In this document: one piece after another, positions 2,674-9,307 of the stretch
How the letters are laid out: each line of letters opens with the position of its first letter
Position numbering within the stretch: position 1 is the first letter of the stretch
Made by a program: the position numbers and the translations under genes
The notes under the pieces: model-generated
What the model was told of the DNA's origin: nothing
The model's input: only the letters and a program-made list of their open reading frames with translations
The model's database searches: none
Assembly (NCBI GenBank): GCA_007136585.1
Contig: SLGR01000059.1
Coordinates: 1 to 9,307, forward strand
Reading direction: 5' to 3'
DNA length: 9,307 nucleotides
DNA from: Candidatus Sumerlaeota bacterium
GTDB taxonomy: Bacteria; CG03; SLGR01

Positions 2674-3297
2674 GTGAAATTAGAAGAGTTTATTAAATTA
2701 ACAGAAGAGCATCCCGTAATTGAGTTATCAGCATTCTTTGGGGATGATAAGGGTATTAGGGTTCAGGTATCCCAATGGGTGAAAACGGGCAAATTGATTA
2801 TGCTCAAAAGGGGGTATTACATCCTTGGTGACCGATACCGGAAGATTAATCCCTATGAACTCCATATAGCGAGCGTATTGAAAAGGCCGTCTTATGTTAG
2901 CCTTGAAAAGGCATTAGAGTTTTACGGACTGATTCCGGAAATGGTCGTCCCGTATACTTCTGTTACCACTAAAAGACAGAATGAATACAGGAACGAAATC
3001 GGAATCTTTGAATACAGGCATATTAAGAAGGAACTATTTTGGGGTTATTCCGCTTTAACAAAAGAAAAACAGACGTGCTATATTGCCAGTCCGGAAAAGG
3101 CTATTCTGGATTTTTTTTATTTGCAAAAAAATGATATTTCTGATGATTTTATTGAAGAAATGAGATTTCAGAATACAGACAGGCTTGATGTCAGGAAATT
3201 TAAAAAATTTGCAGACAAATTTGAAACTAAAAGACTAGCGAAAGCATCGGAGCGTATGATCAGATACATTGAAGCGCAGGAAGAAAACACTTTATGA
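2674..3297 (+). CDS. abiEi: AbiEi-like type IV antitoxin / transcriptional regulator
   Basis: This 207-aa protein resembles AbiEi antitoxins. Residues 1-55 look like the winged-helix domain of the family, ending in a basic wing (TGKLIMLKRGYYIL, 38-51). A longer C-terminal antitoxin domain follows, with the typical YVSLEKALEFYGLIPE (74-89) and ASPEKAILDFFYL (138-150) segments. In characterised AbiE systems the N-terminal domain represses the operon, while the C-terminal domain counters the toxin without stable binding. The start is GTG at 2674. No SD precedes it and the upstream promoter puts the transcription start on this codon. The stop overlaps the next ATG (ATGA, 3294-3297), so the two genes are translationally coupled. 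Codons and base composition are visibly more AT-rich than in the genes either side, which suggests horizontal acquisition. The family call rests on motifs and on the partner gene. Confidence 0.85.
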   Translation: MKLEEFIKLTEEHPVIELSAFFGDDKGIRVQVSQWVKTGKLIMLKRGYYILGDRYRKINPYELHIASVLKRPSYVSLEKALEFYGLIPEMVVPYTSVTTKRQNEYRNEIGIFEYRHIKKELFWGYSALTKEKQTCYIASPEKAILDFFYLQKNDISDDFIEEMRFQNTDRLDVRKFKKFADKFETKRLAKASERMIRYIEAQEENTL

Positions 3298-4100
3298 AAG
3301 ATCACCTGCTTGAGATTGTTGAGAAGGAAAAAAGGGAAAGCAGCAAATTAAATATTATGCGTGAATACCTTCAGGCTTTTATTTTAAAAATTCTTCAGGA
3401 AAATAAGTTTTTTAATGCAGCGGCTTTTGCGGGAGGAACAGCCTTGAGATTTGCGTATGACCTGCCGAGGTTTTCTGAAGATCTCGACTTTGCCTCAACG
3501 AGGGAAAACGGTGAAGATTTGGAGTATTATGTAAAGTTACTGCAAAGAGAGTTAAGTCTTACCGGATATGATCTCTCTGTTTCATCCAATTTCTCTAAGA
3601 CGGTTAATTATTCCTTCATAAAATTTGAAGGCCTAAAGTATGAAGCCGGGATTTCTCCTCATAGGAGAGAAAAATTAATGATCAAGCTGGAATTGGATGT
3701 CAACCCGCCTGCCGGGGCTATCGTTGAGCGGGTTATTAAAAATAAATATTTTCTGCTCTCGTTTATGATTTATGACTTGTCGTCGTTGTTGAGCGGCAAA
3801 ATCCACGCCCTGATTTTCAGGAGATATACTAAGGGAAGGGACTGGTATGATCTGCTCTGGTATCTCACTTCTGAAAAGAAACCTGTCCCGAATTTCATAC
3901 TGCTCAACAACGCGACAAGGCAGAGTGAGAGCGCCTATGCTCAGGTTAGTGAAGATAACTGGAAGGAAATACTGAAGGAAAGAATCGCGGAATGCAACTT
4001 TGGGAAGGTGCGCGAAGAGATCTCAAAATTCCTGGAAAGGCCGGAGGAAGCCGGGTTCCTGACAGAAGAAAACTTTTATAAACTGCTGGATGAATACTAA
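3294..4100 (+). CDS. abiEii: AbiEii-like nucleotidyltransferase toxin (DUF1814 / PF08843)
   Basis: This 268-aa protein is the toxin partner of an AbiE-type pair. It carries the four family motifs: GGTALRFAYDLPRFSEDLDF (47-66), with the nucleotidyltransferase GG and the paired Asp 63 and Asp 65; KLELDV (131-136), supplying the third acidic position; the lysine of SGKIHAL (167-173); and RRYTKGRDWYDLLWYL (176-191), with its Arg-Asp pair. The family belongs to the polymerase-beta-like nucleotidyltransferases. Some members (MenT-type toxins) add nucleotides to tRNA 3' ends, while AbiEii was described as GTP-binding. All motif residues are intact, so the gene looks functional. The ATG lies inside the stop of the antitoxin gene, with an AGGAAG purine stretch about 12 nt upstream. 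Likely roles are phage defence by growth arrest or plain element maintenance. The protein's target cannot be read from the sequence. Confidence 0.92.
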   Translation: MKDHLLEIVEKEKRESSKLNIMREYLQAFILKILQENKFFNAAAFAGGTALRFAYDLPRFSEDLDFASTRENGEDLEYYVKLLQRELSLTGYDLSVSSNFSKTVNYSFIKFEGLKYEAGISPHRREKLMIKLELDVNPPAGAIVERVIKNKYFLLSFMIYDLSSLLSGKIHALIFRRYTKGRDWYDLLWYLTSEKKPVPNFILLNNATRQSESAYAQVSEDNWKEILKERIAECNFGKVREEISKFLERPEEAGFLTEENFYKLLDEY

Positions 4101-4240: not shown

Positions 4241-5332
4241 ATGAATAACCCGGAACTTAAGGACCGGATAGAAAGGCCGTTCAGGGAGAGGGTGCGGAAA
4301 GATAAAAAAGTACGAAACGCATACCTGCTCGTGCACTCTGAGAAGTTAAACCTTCATATAAACATAGCCGAAGGTAAAACCGGGGAGTTTGAGGCCGATC
4401 CCGGCCAGGCGGTCCATCTTGCGAGCGTGGGGAAGCTCTTTACAGCAGTTCTTACAGGGGTCTTATATGAAAAGGGGAAGCTGGATTACAATGACCCCAT
4501 AGGCAGGCACCTTGAGAAAGAACTTGTTAGGGGGCTTAACGTTTACAGGGGAAGGGATTACTCCGGGGAGATTACGGTAAGGCATCTTCTTATGCAGACC
4601 TCCGGGCTGAATGATGTCTTTTATCATCTCCTGAAGAAAATGATGAAGGACCCTTCGTTTAAGGCCGGGCCCAGGGAAGCGGTCCTCTGGGGGAAGGAGA
4701 ATTTAAGACCCAAAGCAAGACCCGGAAAGAAATTCTTCTACACAGATACTAATTACTACCTCCTTGGTTTGATAATAGAGAGCATAACGGGGGAGAAATT
4801 TCATCAGGCGATGAGTGAGATGATCTTTGAGCCCCTTAAAATGAACCGCGCGTTTATTCACGGTTTTTCGGAGCCTCTCTTAAGATCTGAGTACCCGGTT
4901 GCGGGGCTTTTTATAAAAAACGTCAATCTCCTCTCTATTGAGGGTATTCATAAGATAGATTATGCCGGGGGAAGTCTCATAGCCCCTCTTGAAGAGTACC
5001 TGGTCTTTATGAGAGCCCTGGTTAATCAGGAGATAATAAAAAGAGAGACCCTTGATAGGATGATTGAAGATGATGTTTATATGGGGTTTCCGACAATCGG
5101 GTTTAATTACGGGTACTCAGTATGGAAACCAAAGAGAATACCGGTTCTTATGCCCAAGGAGTATTACTGCTGGGGATGCGTGGGGGTGACGGGGGCATTT
5201 ATGTTTTATCATCCCTCTACCGAATCACATATCATAGGAACGTTTAACGATTATTCATACAGGGGCAGAGCGCTTACGTTTATGTTTAAAAGAGTAATCA
5301 AACCCCTTCTAAGGGCAGAGAGAGACTCGTAA
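4241..5332 (+). CDS. Serine hydrolase, beta-lactamase / DD-peptidase fold (class C-like)
   Basis: This 363-aa member of the Beta-lactamase family (PF00144 type) has its nucleophile motif at Ser62-Val-Gly-Lys65, inside HLASVGKLFTAVLTGVLYEKGKLDYNDPI. The usual ITVRHLLMQTSGL signature is at 111-123. The second motif, normally Tyr-x-Asn, reads Tyr167-Thr-Asp169 in YTDTNYYLLGLIIESITG. The third motif, normally His/Lys-Thr/Ser-Gly, falls at GCVGVTGAF (312-320), where Cys313 occupies the expected His position. The fold is clear, but the substrate is not: such proteins include esterases, peptidases and amidases. No signal peptide or membrane anchor is visible, and the N-terminus is charged, so it is probably cytoplasmic. 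The ATG at 4241 is supported by GGAGAGG (4231-4237) just upstream. It stands alone between the AbiE-like cassette and the zinc-ribbon operon, with no sign of belonging to either. Confidence 0.9.
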   Translation: MNNPELKDRIERPFRERVRKDKKVRNAYLLVHSEKLNLHINIAEGKTGEFEADPGQAVHLASVGKLFTAVLTGVLYEKGKLDYNDPIGRHLEKELVRGLNVYRGRDYSGEITVRHLLMQTSGLNDVFYHLLKKMMKDPSFKAGPREAVLWGKENLRPKARPGKKFFYTDTNYYLLGLIIESITGEKFHQAMSEMIFEPLKMNRAFIHGFSEPLLRSEYPVAGLFIKNVNLLSIEGIHKIDYAGGSLIAPLEEYLVFMRALVNQEIIKRETLDRMIEDDVYMGFPTIGFNYGYSVWKPKRIPVLMPKEYYCWGCVGVTGAFMFYHPSTESHIIGTFNDYSYRGRALTFMFKRVIKPLLRAERDS

Positions 5333-5377: not shown

Positions 5378-5406
5378 TTGAAATAGATGGTTTTTTTTGT
5401 TATCTT
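5378..5406 (+). promoter_or_regulatory. Sigma70-like promoter of the four-gene zinc-ribbon operon
   Basis: A -35 TTGAAA (5378-5383, 5 of 6) and a -10 TATCTT (5401-5406, 4 of 6) are separated by exactly 17 bp. The spacer contains a run of eight T (5391-5398). The predicted transcription start near 5413 leaves a leader of about 26 nt before the AGGA (5429-5432) and the ATG at 5439. It is the only good promoter before the four co-directional genes that end at the terminator at 9137-9189. The 5333-5377 stretch before it shows no hairpin or gene. Confidence 0.6.
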
Positions 5407-5438
5407 AAAAACATAAGAAACCGGAATCAGGAAAAACT

Positions 5439-5486
5439 ATGAAGATGACCACAGTGGCCGGAATAATTTTTTGGAATTTAAGTTAA
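5439..5486 (+). other. Well-placed ATG opening a 15-codon frame that is offset by one from the 430-aa ORF
   Basis: The ATG at 5439 sits 6 nt after AGGA (5429-5432) and about 26 nt after a predicted transcription start, so it is the best initiation site here. Its frame encodes MKMTTVAGIIFWNLS and stops at TAA 5484-5486. One extra T in the six-T run (5467-5472), or a -1 slip there, would join MKMTTVAGIIF directly to LEFKLNCLLKG of the long ORF. This may be the true N-terminus split by an indel or assembly error, a slippage site, or an independent leader peptide. The sequence alone does not decide among these. Confidence 0.5.
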
Positions 5487-6763
5487 ACTGCCTGCTCAAG
5501 GGCGAAAACTCCCAGGCCGGTTCCGGTAGCGATGCCCGATGCCGGCTGGAGGAGGAGAGTCTCTCCATACTCCCCGATTTCGGAGAAGCCCTTTATTTTT
5601 CTATCAGAGATATTACAAGCGTTTCGGCATCCGACTACCGGGTGCGGATAAACCTCACCTCCGGCGAGACCCTGGTCCTTTCCGAACTGGGTTATAAGTA
5701 CGAAGACTTCCTGCGCATACTCTTTAAGATCCGGAACGAGATGATAATAAAAGATATGCTTATGCAGGAGTCGGTGAAGAAATCCGGGGTAGAGGCCGAA
5801 TATACCCGAACCGATGAAAGTAAAGATATCCGCGAATCCGGGGAGTGCCGTGCGCGGCTCTACGAGACGGCCCTTGTCATTATACCCTCCAGGAGCGAGA
5901 TCTTGCGCATACCCTACTGCTATATATCCGGAATGAGAAAGGAGGGGTACTCCCTTGAACTGGATACGGCGTATGACGGCAGTATAAGCCTCTCGCGGAT
6001 GGGCAGGGAGTTTGATCCCTTCTGCCGGGCCCTCTCTGATATTATAAACGAGCTTTCGCTTAAGGCGCAGAAGATGATAAAGGAGCTTCTCCCCGAGGCT
6101 GATCCGCTCAGCGTAAGGAAAGTATCAGGGTTTATGAGAGAAGGTCTGGCGGCGCGCCGGAGCGATATAGACTCTGTATGCCCCGGGTTATGGTCCGGGA
6201 TGGAGAACAGGGTCAAGGAGCTTGAGAACGGCCAGGAGTACGAGTACCTCTCCCGGCTCGGGCGAAAAGATAAGATTTGTATAGGAATGAAGAGAGGCCT
6301 TATGGGGGATCTTACCGGAGAGTATTTATGGTTTCTTATCCCCATTTACAGCGTTGAGCCGGGGCGGCCGGGTAATATCGTGGCCATGGAGTCGGTTTCT
6401 CAGGAGAGCCGGGGCAGCGCCACGTATTTCTTCAGGCTGACCGGACGAAAAGAGTATCCCGGGTTCAGCGCCACAGACAGCCTTGACGCTGTGGCCGATG
6501 AGTTCATAACAAAAATAAACCGCTGTATGCTGGCGGTGAACTTCCGCAGGGAGCCGATCTACCTGCCCCGGGAGCGGCTGAACGAACCGGGGTACCTCAG
6601 ATACCGGGTAGCCGTATCGGCTATACCCGAGCTGCGGGAGCTGAGAGAGCTTTTTGTGGGGCGGGTTATACACAGGAGCCCCGGACAGTGGAAAGAGGAT
6701 GCCGATCAGCTTATGAGGTTTAACGCCGAGGCCGGCGAAGATTCTCTTAAGTGGTCAAAGTAA
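5471..6763 (+). CDS. Uncharacterised protein with two tandem PH-like modules and a conserved C-terminal region
   Basis: This 430-aa protein (from the TTG at 5471) is probably cytoplasmic, with no signal peptide or membrane segment. Two modules align with each other, at about residues 23-98 and 126-200. Each has a strand ending in Ile-x-Pro (SILP / VIIP), an acidic turn, an ISxh-type strand (DITSV / YISGM), a Tyr-containing strand, the element LSELGYKYEDF or LSRMGREFDPF, then an amphipathic helix. This layout resembles bacterial PH-like domains. The remainder (about 200-430) is a separate region containing FMREGLAARRSD, GMKRGLMG, EYLWFLIPIY, SATYFFRL, FRREPIYLPRERL and a basic FVGRVIHRSPGQW tail. 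Its Gly/Arg/Trp-rich motifs look constrained, but I cannot match it to a named family. The TTG has no good SD. The likelier start is ATG 5439, one frame away. Fifteen bases separate it from the next gene in the operon. Confidence 0.85.
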   Translation: MEFKLNCLLKGENSQAGSGSDARCRLEEESLSILPDFGEALYFSIRDITSVSASDYRVRINLTSGETLVLSELGYKYEDFLRILFKIRNEMIIKDMLMQESVKKSGVEAEYTRTDESKDIRESGECRARLYETALVIIPSRSEILRIPYCYISGMRKEGYSLELDTAYDGSISLSRMGREFDPFCRALSDIINELSLKAQKMIKELLPEADPLSVRKVSGFMREGLAARRSDIDSVCPGLWSGMENRVKELENGQEYEYLSRLGRKDKICIGMKRGLMGDLTGEYLWFLIPIYSVEPGRPGNIVAMESVSQESRGSATYFFRLTGRKEYPGFSATDSLDAVADEFITKINRCMLAVNFRREPIYLPRERLNEPGYLRYRVAVSAIPELRELRELFVGRVIHRSPGQWKEDADQLMRFNAEAGEDSLKWSK

Positions 6764-6778
6764 AAAGGAGGAAACTCT

Positions 6779-7111
6779 ATGCCCGGATATAAACACCCCT
6801 GCAGACACTGCGGCCAGCTTGCGCCGCCGAACGCTAACGTATGCCCGTTCTGCGGGAAGGTCAACCCAAAGGGCCCGGCCAGGTGTCCCAAGTGCCGGAA
6901 CCCGATAAAGAAAGAGTATAAAGTCTGCGCCGGGTGCGGGATTGAGCTGAAAACAGGATGCCCCAGGTGCGGGGAGGAGACTTTCCTCGGGGATTACTGC
7001 GATCACTGCGACGAGCGGCTGCTGGTAGTATGTCCGGGGAAAAAGTGCGGTCTGGAGCAGGCGCCCATAGGGGAGTTTTGCGTAAAATGCGGAGAGAAGT
7101 TAAACAGGTAA
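6779..7111 (+). CDS. Small multi-zinc-ribbon protein, eight Cys pairs
   Basis: This 110-aa protein consists almost entirely of zinc knuckles. Cys pairs occur at 8/11, 22/25, 36/39, 50/53, 61/64, 74/77, 85/90 and 101/104. All are CxxC except 85/90, which reads CPGKKC. Sixteen cysteines could form four zinc ribbons, each using two neighbouring knuckles. There is no signal peptide, membrane segment or enzymatic motif, so it probably acts as an adaptor or nucleic-acid/protein-binding module in the cytoplasm. The ATG at 6779 follows a textbook AAGGAGG (6765-6771) with 7-nt spacing, only 15 nt after the upstream stop. Rubredoxin-like electron transfer is a less likely alternative, because the knuckles have the CPxCG/CxxCG form of DZR-type ribbons. 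Confidence 0.9.
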   Translation: MPGYKHPCRHCGQLAPPNANVCPFCGKVNPKGPARCPKCRNPIKKEYKVCAGCGIELKTGCPRCGEETFLGDYCDHCDERLLVVCPGKKCGLEQAPIGEFCVKCGEKLNR

Positions 7112-7126
7112 AAAGGAGGAATTTCT

Positions 7127-7807
7127 ATGGCGATGAAGGCGTTTACAAGTAATTTTCAGGACAAGAGCACGGAAGCGGGGTTTCAGTTCATTTTCCAGTG
7201 CGATATATGCAAAGAGGGGTATAAGACTGAGTTCATAGAGTCGCAGACTTTCAGAAAAAAAGGGATATTTGCCAAAATAGCGAACCTTGTCTCCTCGGCT
7301 CTCTTTATGTCAGGCAAGAGTGGGGCCTACCGGGCAAGTTACGGTCTCAGGCGGGGGGCCCAGTCAGTGGGCTCCGGAGGCGCCGGGGTCAAGCAGTCCC
7401 CGAAGTGGCATAAGGAATACGAGGATGCCTTTGAGCTTGCCCAGAACGAGGCCAAGGAGCATTTCCACCGCTGCCCCAAGTGCAGTAAATGGGTATGCGA
7501 GACCGACTGGAACGAACAGGAGGGGCTCTGCACCAAGGAGGCCCCGAGGGTTGATGTGGAGGTGGCCGCGGCCAAGGCAGCAAAGACCGTTCAGGATATA
7601 CACGAAAAAGCAGCTTCAACCCAGAGTTTTACCGGTGAGATAGAGAGCAAGCAGACTATCTGTCCCCAATGCGGCAAACCCGCCGGCGAGGGTAAGTTCT
7701 GCAATAACTGCGGAACCGGGCTTGGTTTGAACAAGTGCGGTAAGTGCGGGGCTAAGAACCCGGCAGGGATAAGGTTCTGCGGAGAGTGCGGGACAGCGCT
7801 GAACTGA
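7127..7807 (+). CDS. Zinc-ribbon protein with split N-terminal Cys motif and two C-terminal double zinc ribbons
   Basis: This 226-aa protein has three parts. The N-terminal region holds CDIC (25-28), a basic and glycine-rich linker (about 40-92) and a helix (94-113) leading to HFHRCPKCSKWVCETDW (112-128), with further cysteines at 124 and 135. The first and second CxxC pairs may fold together as one split ribbon. A short Ala/Lys-rich helix (about 145-165) follows. The C-terminus carries CxxC pairs at 179/182, 192/195, 204/207 and 218/221, which form two standard zinc ribbons. There is no signal peptide; a mildly hydrophobic stretch at 46-61 is too polar to be a convincing membrane segment. 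The ATG at 7127 follows AAGGAGG (7113-7119) by 7 nt, 15 nt after the previous gene. It is likely a binding partner of the flanking gene products. The exact function is unknown. Confidence 0.9.
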   Translation: MAMKAFTSNFQDKSTEAGFQFIFQCDICKEGYKTEFIESQTFRKKGIFAKIANLVSSALFMSGKSGAYRASYGLRRGAQSVGSGGAGVKQSPKWHKEYEDAFELAQNEAKEHFHRCPKCSKWVCETDWNEQEGLCTKEAPRVDVEVAAAKAAKTVQDIHEKAASTQSFTGEIESKQTICPQCGKPAGEGKFCNNCGTGLGLNKCGKCGAKNPAGIRFCGECGTALN

Positions 7808-7809
7808 GA

Positions 7810-7855
7810 GTATCCGCCCTCAGATACCCGGGATACGGTTTTACTTTAACCGGGT
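7810..7855 (+). promoter_or_regulatory. Competing hairpins in the leader of the FecR-domain gene
   Basis: The 51-nt gap before ATG 7859 is dense in inverted repeats. GTATC (7810-7814) pairs with GATAC (7823-7827), and CGGTT (7836-7840) with AACCG (7848-7852). The alternative ACCCGG (7826-7831) with CCGGGT (7850-7855) excludes both. GTATCC (7810-7815) can also pair with GGATAC (7831-7836). The stem at 7850-7855 ends 3 nt before the start codon, where no SD is present. A translation-control role is an inference from this layout. None of the hairpins has a U-tract, so it is not an intrinsic terminator. Confidence 0.35.
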
Positions 7856-7858
7856 AAA

Positions 7859-9103
7859 ATGACCTGGAGCATAAAATCCGGCGGGGAGATCTCCGGCAGC
7901 CGGAGTATGGATGAGGTTTTTCTTCCTCTTCCTGAGGGGTGGGAGCTTACAGGGAGCGACGGGCTCAATCTTTCAGACCGGCAGGCCTTCGCGGAGGTAG
8001 GGCATATCCATCCCGACCCTCCCGAGTTCAGGACAGATCCGGACCTGGCCCTGGTATCCCGGAGCCTCTTTGAGCAGACTCGTAAGATGATGGACCGGTT
8101 ACGCAGGTCGAAGCACAGCAGGTATGATTATATCTGCGATATATCGGTTATTGCCTTTCCAGGCCGGGAGGAAGCCAGAAAGCACGCGGAAAACAGAATG
8201 ATCCCCTTTAAGGAAGGGGGCCTTGACTCGGTTCTGGAGGCCGCCGCCAGGCTTAACCCCGAAGCCGCTGAAAAGATAAAGGAGGCTCAGAAGGCTCTCT
8301 CCAAAGTGCCTGACGCCCTTATGGACAGGGGAGTTTCCGTCAGCGGAGGCAGGTTCCTGGGAGAGGAAGCAGTCTTTACCGCGGGTCCCGGAGGCAGGAT
8401 CCCGTCTGCTGTTATAATTAATAACTTTCTTCTAAGCGGAACTATCCTGGGAGCCGGTGAAATAAACCCGGGTTCGGTAAAAATACACTCCATAGAGTGC
8501 CGTAAGGCGAAAAAGAACCACAAATCCGGGTGCGGGTGCAGTTTATGCCTGGTTCACCCTCCCTGCTCGACCCGGGCTAATGAGAATCTCATCCACAGAG
8601 AGGAGGCCGAGGGTCTTCTTAAACTGCTTTTTGCGAGGCTCAGGGCAGATAATCGGGGCCGGGAAGATTCTCCCGGTTTTACCGTGGAGCGGAAGGGGAG
8701 CAGGGTTGAAAACCCCGGCGAGGGCGCCGGGCTCCAAAAGGAGGATATTATTAAAACCGGGTCTTCCGAAGTCAGTATAACCGACGAACTGGATAACCTG
8801 GTCTGTATCGCCCCCGGGAGCGAGCTAAAGGTGGAGGATGAGGCGCTTCTGGAGCAGGTTCAGGGCGAACTCAGGGCAAAGATAAGGAAGTTTCCCCGGG
8901 GCAGAGATTTCAGCATAAGGAACCCGGTGGCTGTCCTGGGCGTGAGGGGAACGGAGTTCTCCCTGCGGATGGAGCAGGGGATCTCGGAACTAAAGGTTTT
9001 CGAGGGCGAAGTTGAGTTCTCCGATTTAAAAGGAGGCAGTGTTACGGTCAGGGAAGGCCAGGGCTGCCGCTGCTCCGCTGAAGGACTCCGTAAGCCGTTT
9101 TAG
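7859..9103 (+). CDS. FecR-domain protein with unfamiliar N-terminal domain and Cys cluster, no membrane anchor
   Basis: In this 414-aa protein, residues 1-120 form a compact, motif-rich domain I do not recognise. It includes LPEGWELTGSDGLNLSD, EVGHIHPDPPEF (His49 and His51) and RYDYICDISVIAFPG. Residues 125-150 are a charged Ala-rich helix. Residues 205-240 carry a Cys cluster, C214-x10-C225-x-C227-x2-C230-x5-C236, which could bind a metal. Residues about 296-405 match FecR domains: DIIKTGSSEVSI, IAPGSELKVED, the hallmark VAVLGVRGTEFSL (357-369), KVFEGEVEF and VTVREGQG. FecR domains usually sit in the periplasm behind a membrane segment, but no signal peptide or anchor is present here. An in-frame stop at 7847 limits the start, and ATG 7859 is the first candidate. 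It has no SD and lies just after competing hairpins. It is the last gene before the operon terminator. Confidence 0.87.
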   Translation: MTWSIKSGGEISGSRSMDEVFLPLPEGWELTGSDGLNLSDRQAFAEVGHIHPDPPEFRTDPDLALVSRSLFEQTRKMMDRLRRSKHSRYDYICDISVIAFPGREEARKHAENRMIPFKEGGLDSVLEAAARLNPEAAEKIKEAQKALSKVPDALMDRGVSVSGGRFLGEEAVFTAGPGGRIPSAVIINNFLLSGTILGAGEINPGSVKIHSIECRKAKKNHKSGCGCSLCLVHPPCSTRANENLIHREEAEGLLKLLFARLRADNRGREDSPGFTVERKGSRVENPGEGAGLQKEDIIKTGSSEVSITDELDNLVCIAPGSELKVEDEALLEQVQGELRAKIRKFPRGRDFSIRNPVAVLGVRGTEFSLRMEQGISELKVFEGEVEFSDLKGGSVTVREGQGCRCSAEGLRKPF

Positions 9104-9136
9104 CTCTCAGGTAAACCCGCCGAACTCATAACCCCG

Positions 9137-9189
9137 CGCTGTAATAAGTATAGGCCTGGAGCAGGACCTTTACAGCGTTTCTTTTTTTT
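9137..9189 (+). terminator. Rho-independent terminator of the four-gene operon
   Basis: A perfect 8-bp outer stem, CGCTGTAA (9137-9144) with TTACAGCG (9170-9177), encloses an inner stem AGGCCT (9152-9157) with AGGACCT (9162-9168), which has one bulged A. The stem is followed at once by a U-tract, TTTCTTTTTTTT (9178-9189). It lies 34 nt after the FecR gene stop and closes the transcription unit that begins near 5413. No other intrinsic terminator of this quality is visible in the window. Confidence 0.85.
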
Positions 9190-9251
9190 GAGGGGGGTGG
9201 ACTTGTGATAAAAAGTTAAGCTGGGTTAAGATATTAATAAAATATATTTAT

Positions 9252-9279
9252 TTGGCAGTATTTTAATGAAAAGTATAAA
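9252..9279 (+). promoter_or_regulatory. Sigma70-like promoter facing out of the window
   Basis: A -35 TTGGCA (9252-9257, 5 of 6) and a -10 TATAAA (9274-9279, 5 of 6) are separated by 16 bp in a very AT-rich stretch. An inverted repeat, AATAAA (9236-9241) and TTTATT (9247-9252), abuts the -35. A direct repeat GTTAAG (9215-9220, 9225-9230) with a 10-bp period lies upstream. Either could bind a regulator. The predicted transcription start is near 9286. An ATG at 9291 is open to the window end but lacks an SD, so the gene served probably begins beyond the window. Confidence 0.5.
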
Positions 9280-9307
9280 GTTTTAATTAAATGTATTTTT
9301 CCGTACA

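Follow-up and report, generated by a model that had tools for sequence, protein, structure and literature searches.

A conserved PH and zinc-ribbon gene trio of Bacteria and Archaea, a candidate membrane-side adaptor

FecR domains are usually extracytoplasmic, and in FecR anti-sigma regulators a transmembrane segment splits the cytoplasmic anti-sigma part from the periplasmic FecR domain. The archaeal chemotaxis adaptor CheF carries two PH-like domains and binds CheY-P via its C-terminal tail domain (PMC9126983), and bacterial PH families (PHb, PF08000 and relatives) have been proposed as protein-interaction platforms, several of them membrane linked (PMC2817789). Zinc-ribbon proteins are found together with PspA in the envelope-linked ydj phage-shock operon of Bacillus subtilis (PMC11237479). 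Proteins of all three kinds are encoded side by side in a 9307-bp stretch of DNA from Candidatus Sumerlaeota bacterium, which is one entire contig (G000:C142) and is referred to here as the window. Four adjacent co-directional genes identified by open reading frame (ORF) calling close it on the + strand, encoding a double-PH protein (5471-6763), the zinc-ribbon proteins ZR1 (6779-7111) and ZR2 (7127-7807), and a FecR-domain protein, FecR-A (7859-9103). An earlier note, made from the sequence of the window, had taken them for a self-contained four-gene unit. The adjacency on one strand stands, but the core of the unit is three genes, PH, ZR1 and ZR2, the FecR gene being optional. We propose, with a probability of about 0.45, that the three core proteins constitute a conserved adaptor at the cytoplasmic face of the membrane.

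Homologues of PH, ZR1 and ZR2 are neighbours across Bacteria and Archaea rather than scattered. Scanned directly, the PH protein sequence gave no named relatives, and ZR2 was used as the query instead; one ZR2 scan of named genomes yielded 250 relatives in both domains, and 80 loci were retrieved. Gene neighbourhoods were counted in 81 loci, the window among them, after removal of near-duplicates. Of the 78 loci having both ZR1 and ZR2, 76 have the two within 200 bp of each other, and 69 of all 81 loci contain a PH gene. The usual order is PH-ZR1-ZR2, while in two Chloroflexi the PH gene follows the ZR pair on the opposite strand. Among the 12 loci without PH, two start at a contig end and four have a complete or partial PH gene elsewhere in the genome. 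A first search detected the PH protein in 2/97 other genomes. Across 386 diverse genomes, the PH profile gave six strong matches (G000 included) and one weak partial match (G275), and the same six genomes hold all strong ZR2 matches; G306, which has no PH match, adds a distant ZR2 (L129), and the gene after it encodes a lipoprotein that is CsgG-like by eye. Further, the divergence of PH correlates with that of ZR2 (r 0.45, against a largest value of 0.26 in 2000 permutations), a figure from which host relatedness was not removed.

Named hosts include Elusimicrobiota, Aminicenantota, Bacillota, Actinomycetota, Chloroflexota, Acidobacteriota, Patescibacteria, Thermoplasmatota, Bathyarchaeota, and Micrarchaeota. 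Binning errors might account for single hosts, but the Micrarchaeota contig measures 344 kb and one Patescibacteria contig 236 kb. In a tree of PH plus ZR2, archaea and bacteria are intermixed; since this tree is weakly supported and derives from binned genomes, we do not claim transfer between them. The window unit (5471-9103) deviates in GC content at third codon positions (GC3, 64-71% versus 38-53% in the four preceding genes), but recent transfer on grounds of composition was likewise set aside, as across 72 other loci the unit generally matches its flanks (median difference 0.4, p 0.39).

The patchy distribution across phyla, together with an AbiEi/AbiEii pair nearby in the window, could suggest an anti-phage or other conflict system. 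We consider this very unlikely: none of the four proteins matches a PADLOC-DB family at E up to 1, neither a recurrent defence neighbour nor an effector enzyme accompanies the unit, its GC3 generally equals that of its neighbours, and the plasmids and phages searched contain no copy of it, viral contigs giving a single zinc-ribbon match. In line with the earlier note, searches of Pfam, NCBIfam, and PADLOC reveal no recognisable enzyme in the unit, and no characterised operon corresponds to it: the curated families, the defence library, and the open-access literature searched hold no name for the PH, ZR1, and ZR2 set. We rate it as new as a gene system, while its function may prove to be of a familiar kind.

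The double-PH protein (5471..6763, + strand) has 430 aa, and 61 full-length homologues were aligned to it. Its TTG start is supported by the nearest homologue, whose ATG occupies the same alignment position. The AlphaFold2 model (predicted local distance difference test, pLDDT, 92.0; predicted template modelling score, pTM, 0.88) comprises two PH folds, each of seven strands plus a helix, and a third domain. In the model, the first fold (residues 1-97; 5471..5761) has its strands within E2-71 and its helix at 74-95; the second (residues 98-197; 5762..6061) has strands within E102-175 and a helix at 178-206. Both halves superpose on solved PH-like domains with Z of about 12-13 and a root-mean-square deviation of 1.6-3.5 Å over 87-107 residues, confirming at the level of the predicted structure the PH-like assignment of both N-terminal halves. 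The double PH-like protein recognised in the earlier note is thus borne out by structure without Pfam support; what had been overlooked is the third, C-terminal domain. By sequence, neither NCBIfam nor PADLOC gives a match to the protein, and Pfam gives none that is credible. Its 61 homologues match no bacterial PH family in Pfam at cut-off and none consistently, the only values being weak ones of one member each (YcxB, 0.0055; PH_FAN, 0.018), and a PDB search with their profile gives no hit at E up to 1, though the CheF structure 7ovp is among the entries.

The C-terminal domain (residues 198-430; 6062..6760, + strand) contains most of the family-invariant residues, namely G225, G272, Y319, F358, P362, Y378, R392, and G397, and K274, R359, R360, R398, and H401 are conserved at 98%. 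Folded separately from residue 197, it reaches pLDDT 93.2. No convincing fold match was obtained: Foldseek gives nothing under E 0.2, and rows for EspG above this value were not accepted as kinship. A second look by structure comparison places the DNA-bound TnsE C-terminal domain first (Z 6.5, 122 residues, 3.7 Å; next row Z 3.8). These features would fit a unit that acts on nucleic acid or a nucleoprotein machine, with the zinc ribbons and the basic C-terminal domain (K274, R359, R360, R392, R398, H401) binding DNA or RNA and the PH pair serving as a protein platform as in FACT; the double-PH middle domains of Pob3, SSRP1, and Spt16 are indeed among the best Foldseek matches. We regard this as unlikely. 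Kinship with TnsE was not accepted, as a Z of 6.5 can be expected between proteins that are not truly related, all Foldseek E-values of this domain exceed 0.2, and the 61 homologues give no Pfam match to TnsE_C (PF18623) at E 0.1; a genome search with PF18623 matched nothing, controls included, and is uninformative. Moreover, CheF and BBS5 have double PH folds too, and nucleic-acid binding fits poorly with a membrane-anchored ZR1. In L050 (1049-3109) and L040 (1325-3382), the PH protein is longer by about 240 aa at its C-terminus; the extension in L050 has no Pfam match.

ZR1 (110 aa; 6779..7111, + strand) is a chain of four tandem zinc ribbons (Pfam DZR, 1.2e-13), whose 16 Cys are each 91-100% conserved in 78 homologues. 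ZR2 (226 aa; 7127..7807, + strand) has 14 conserved Cys, six of them in an unnamed N-terminal zinc-site domain and the other eight in two C-terminal ribbons. Both proteins pass Pfam cut-offs (ZR2 with Zn_Ribbon_1 and DZR), in line with the two zinc-ribbon proteins first reported.

A link of ZR1 to the membrane is seen in five loci (L080, L083, L095, L101, L112), in which it stands behind a transmembrane segment and on the predicted cytoplasmic side, with basic residues flanking the segment on the ZR1 side in L080, L083, and L095. In the Patescibacteria L083, L101, and L112, ZR1 makes up the tail of a membrane protein whose external part carries PPC-type domains (by weak Pfam matches in two, by visual resemblance in the third), and in the DPANN archaea L080 and L095 the segment lies within ZR1 itself. 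The optional genes inside the unit encode mostly exported or membrane proteins. Thus, a second FecR-like family (by eye) occurs in L040, L050, L073, and L084, and small lipoproteins, Ig-like by eye, in L046, L062, L091, L094, and L100. The unit of L033 contains a CsgG/FlgO lipoprotein whose tail is similar, L088 a secreted propeller-like protein, and L039 Ig-like and lipoprotein genes (the latter two by eye). No other neighbour recurs across lineages, save members of common families, ABC transporters, dehydrogenases, and transposases among them.

The unit could also be an ESCRT-like (endosomal sorting complex required for transport) or phage-shock-like system of membrane remodelling or surveillance, with lipid or a membrane protein as the ligand of the PH domains and the ribbons recruiting cargo or a remodelling factor. 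PH domains are combined with zinc fingers in Vps36 and in an Asgard Znr_PH_CC_SB protein (PMC10936438), the ydj operon combines zinc-ribbon proteins with PspA (PMC11237479), and TMEM43 (L097) and an AIM24-like protein (L055, by eye) are single neighbours of the unit. The expected machinery is not among them: genes for PspA, ESCRT-III, SPFH, or AAA ATPase proteins are not recurrent beside the unit, and neither PspA nor ESCRT-III is found among the window genes or recurrent neighbour families, genome-wide presence not having been searched. We therefore judge a remodelling role quite improbable. In L097, the TMEM43 gene (2-1102; 5.7e-48) lies immediately upstream of ZR1, and in L055 the GYF plus AIM24-like gene (6838-7740) lies downstream of ZR2 on the opposite strand.

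The FecR-A protein (414 aa; 7859..9103, + strand) is an optional member. It has an N-terminal region (7859..8665, profile A9) and a FecR domain (residues 313-386; 8795..9016), which matches PF04773 with E 1.7e-8 and passes the curated cut-off. The N-terminal region has no trusted Pfam or PDB relative and is known from five lineages, two of them archaeal, at the PH/ZR1/ZR2 locus only. Relatives sharing it with the window protein are 25-32% identical, with pairwise E of 7e-23 and 4e-41 in two comparisons. The window is the sole locus with the FecR-A gene after ZR2. Four other distinct units contain the gene, placed there after PH and before ZR1: L038 (Stahlbacteria), L050, to which L052 is nearly identical (Aminicenantes), L095 (Micrarchaeota), and L113 (Thermoplasmata). 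Directly 3' of ZR2, G006 has a strong hairpin (z -5.79) and G053 has other genes. Five of 50 unit-carrying genomes have the N-terminal region, one copy each and always at the unit; among the 386 diverse genomes it occurs only in that of the window, plus one weak partial match, and 120 genomes of the phylum of L038 hold no further members. Because this region occurs only at the unit and in few carriers (the gene is present in about 6/82 loci), FecR-A is truly a member of the unit, albeit a facultative one. A Cys cluster (C225-x-C227-x2-C230-x2-H-x2-C236; 8531..8566), located by alignment and pairwise comparisons, recurs in variant form in L038, L050, and L113 and is absent in L095; it is possibly a metal site. 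The earlier description of the FecR-domain protein as unanchored is upheld, in that neither a signal peptide nor a transmembrane segment is evident and the highest 19-residue hydropathy is 1.49.

The position of ZR1 behind a membrane segment in five loci and the mostly exported optional partners lead us to propose a membrane-tethered cytoplasmic adaptor. ZR1, with its four ribbons, would dock on the cytoplasmic tails of membrane proteins or be fused to them. ZR2, as the constant partner, and the double-PH protein would bind ZR1 in a physical complex, with the PH protein acting as platform and its conserved C-terminal domain contacting a downstream target. The optional proteins, FecR-A in the window and FecR-like, Ig-like lipoprotein, CsgG-like, and PPC-domain membrane proteins elsewhere, would be lineage-specific sensors or clients. 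In the window organism, too, the complex would sit at the membrane and may have a sensing or signalling role. Of the cytoplasmic sensing or assembly complex suggested earlier, the binding or scaffold reading remains the best, while the site is probably the membrane rather than simply the cytoplasm; the trio is probably a membrane-side scaffold connecting the inside of the cell with surface or sensor proteins. Several observations weigh against this proposal. A membrane segment is absent from most ZR1 proteins, including the one in the window, and the window FecR-A protein seems to be cytoplasmic, unlike most FecR-domain proteins. In addition, six genomes with ZR1-ZR2 have no PH protein detected anywhere, and in two Chloroflexota loci PH and ZR2 occur without ZR1 in the retrieved stretch.

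The exact lengths of the gene junctions in the window given before (15, 15, and 51 nt) were reproduced, and the ribosome-binding sequence AAAAAGGAGG is present at both 15-nt junctions. The 51-nt spacer before the FecR-A gene (7808..7858, + strand) has no Shine-Dalgarno sequence and folds weakly (z -1.44). The single promoter claimed for the unit is not supported above chance: the site TTGAAA-17-TATCTT with extended -10 (5378..5406, + strand) matches the consensus at 9/12 positions and is not significant, because the window has 15 such sites versus 10.3 (sd 2.6) expected by chance. The proposed strong terminator fared better. A hairpin (9136-9178) with a T-rich tail (9136..9190, + strand) after the FecR-A gene is plausible as an intrinsic terminator (-18.5 kcal/mol, z -2.24), but a simple terminator scanner did not pick it up; an Rfam search of the window gave no match.

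The last 360 bp of the window (8948-9307) recur with 100% identity at the end of contig G004:C202, in a genome from another family of the same order. C202 is probably the continuation of the window, and a binning error may affect one of the two; next on C202 is a small-protein pair, DUF4258-like and YgiT-like (by eye). Upstream of the unit, the window encodes a UPF0182 membrane protein (2-2605, E 4.1e-275) truncated by the contig start, the AbiEi/AbiEii-type toxin-antitoxin pair (2674-4100; PADLOC 7.3e-56 and 1.1e-65), and a serine beta-lactamase-family protein (4241-5332; PF00144, 9.1e-34) scoring far under named beta-lactamase cut-offs.

That the set is kept from Patescibacteria with genomes below 1 Mb to Micrarchaeota and Clostridia suggests that its function is probably useful, and its largest protein, of 430 aa, matches no curated family. 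Bacteria, including Patescibacteria, and Archaea, including DPANN, might share an undescribed signalling or scaffold system. In it, a zinc-ribbon hub beneath the membrane would connect exchangeable envelope or FecR sensors with a double-PH protein whose C-terminal domain is new, a broader view that we hold tentatively and at somewhat less than even odds. A common membrane-side adaptor, if true, would account in one stroke for many genes listed as hypothetical or 'zinc ribbon', and tandem PH domains would gain a defined prokaryotic role with testable partners.

Among described systems, FecR anti-sigma regulators share the PF04773 domain with FecR-A, which differs in having no membrane segment and in its unique N-terminal region with the Cys cluster; moreover, no gene for an extracytoplasmic function (ECF) sigma factor is present among the window genes or recurrent in related loci. 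The ydj operon resembles the unit in its zinc-ribbon proteins, but these differ from ZR1 and ZR2, and the unit has no PspA, SPFH, or TPM-phosphatase gene. The bacterial PH families likewise have the PH fold in prokaryotic proteins, but none was matched at cut-off by the 61 homologues, which combine two PH folds with a third domain. The FACT subunits Pob3/SSRP1 and Spt16 share the tandem PH folds but are eukaryotic histone chaperones with no sequence match and no zinc-ribbon partners. The closest likeness in structure is to CheF (PDB 7ovp), a cytoplasmic adaptor with two N-terminal PH-like domains, which ranks first when the full model is searched with Foldseek (E 3.1e-6). The alignment is limited to the PH part (model residues 1-175), CheF has no sequence match to the PH protein and no zinc-ribbon partner genes here, and the C-terminal domain folded alone gives no CheF row among the matches listed, which is not proof of absence. 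CheF thus offers an analogy rather than a homology, indicating that a two-PH adaptor design exists.

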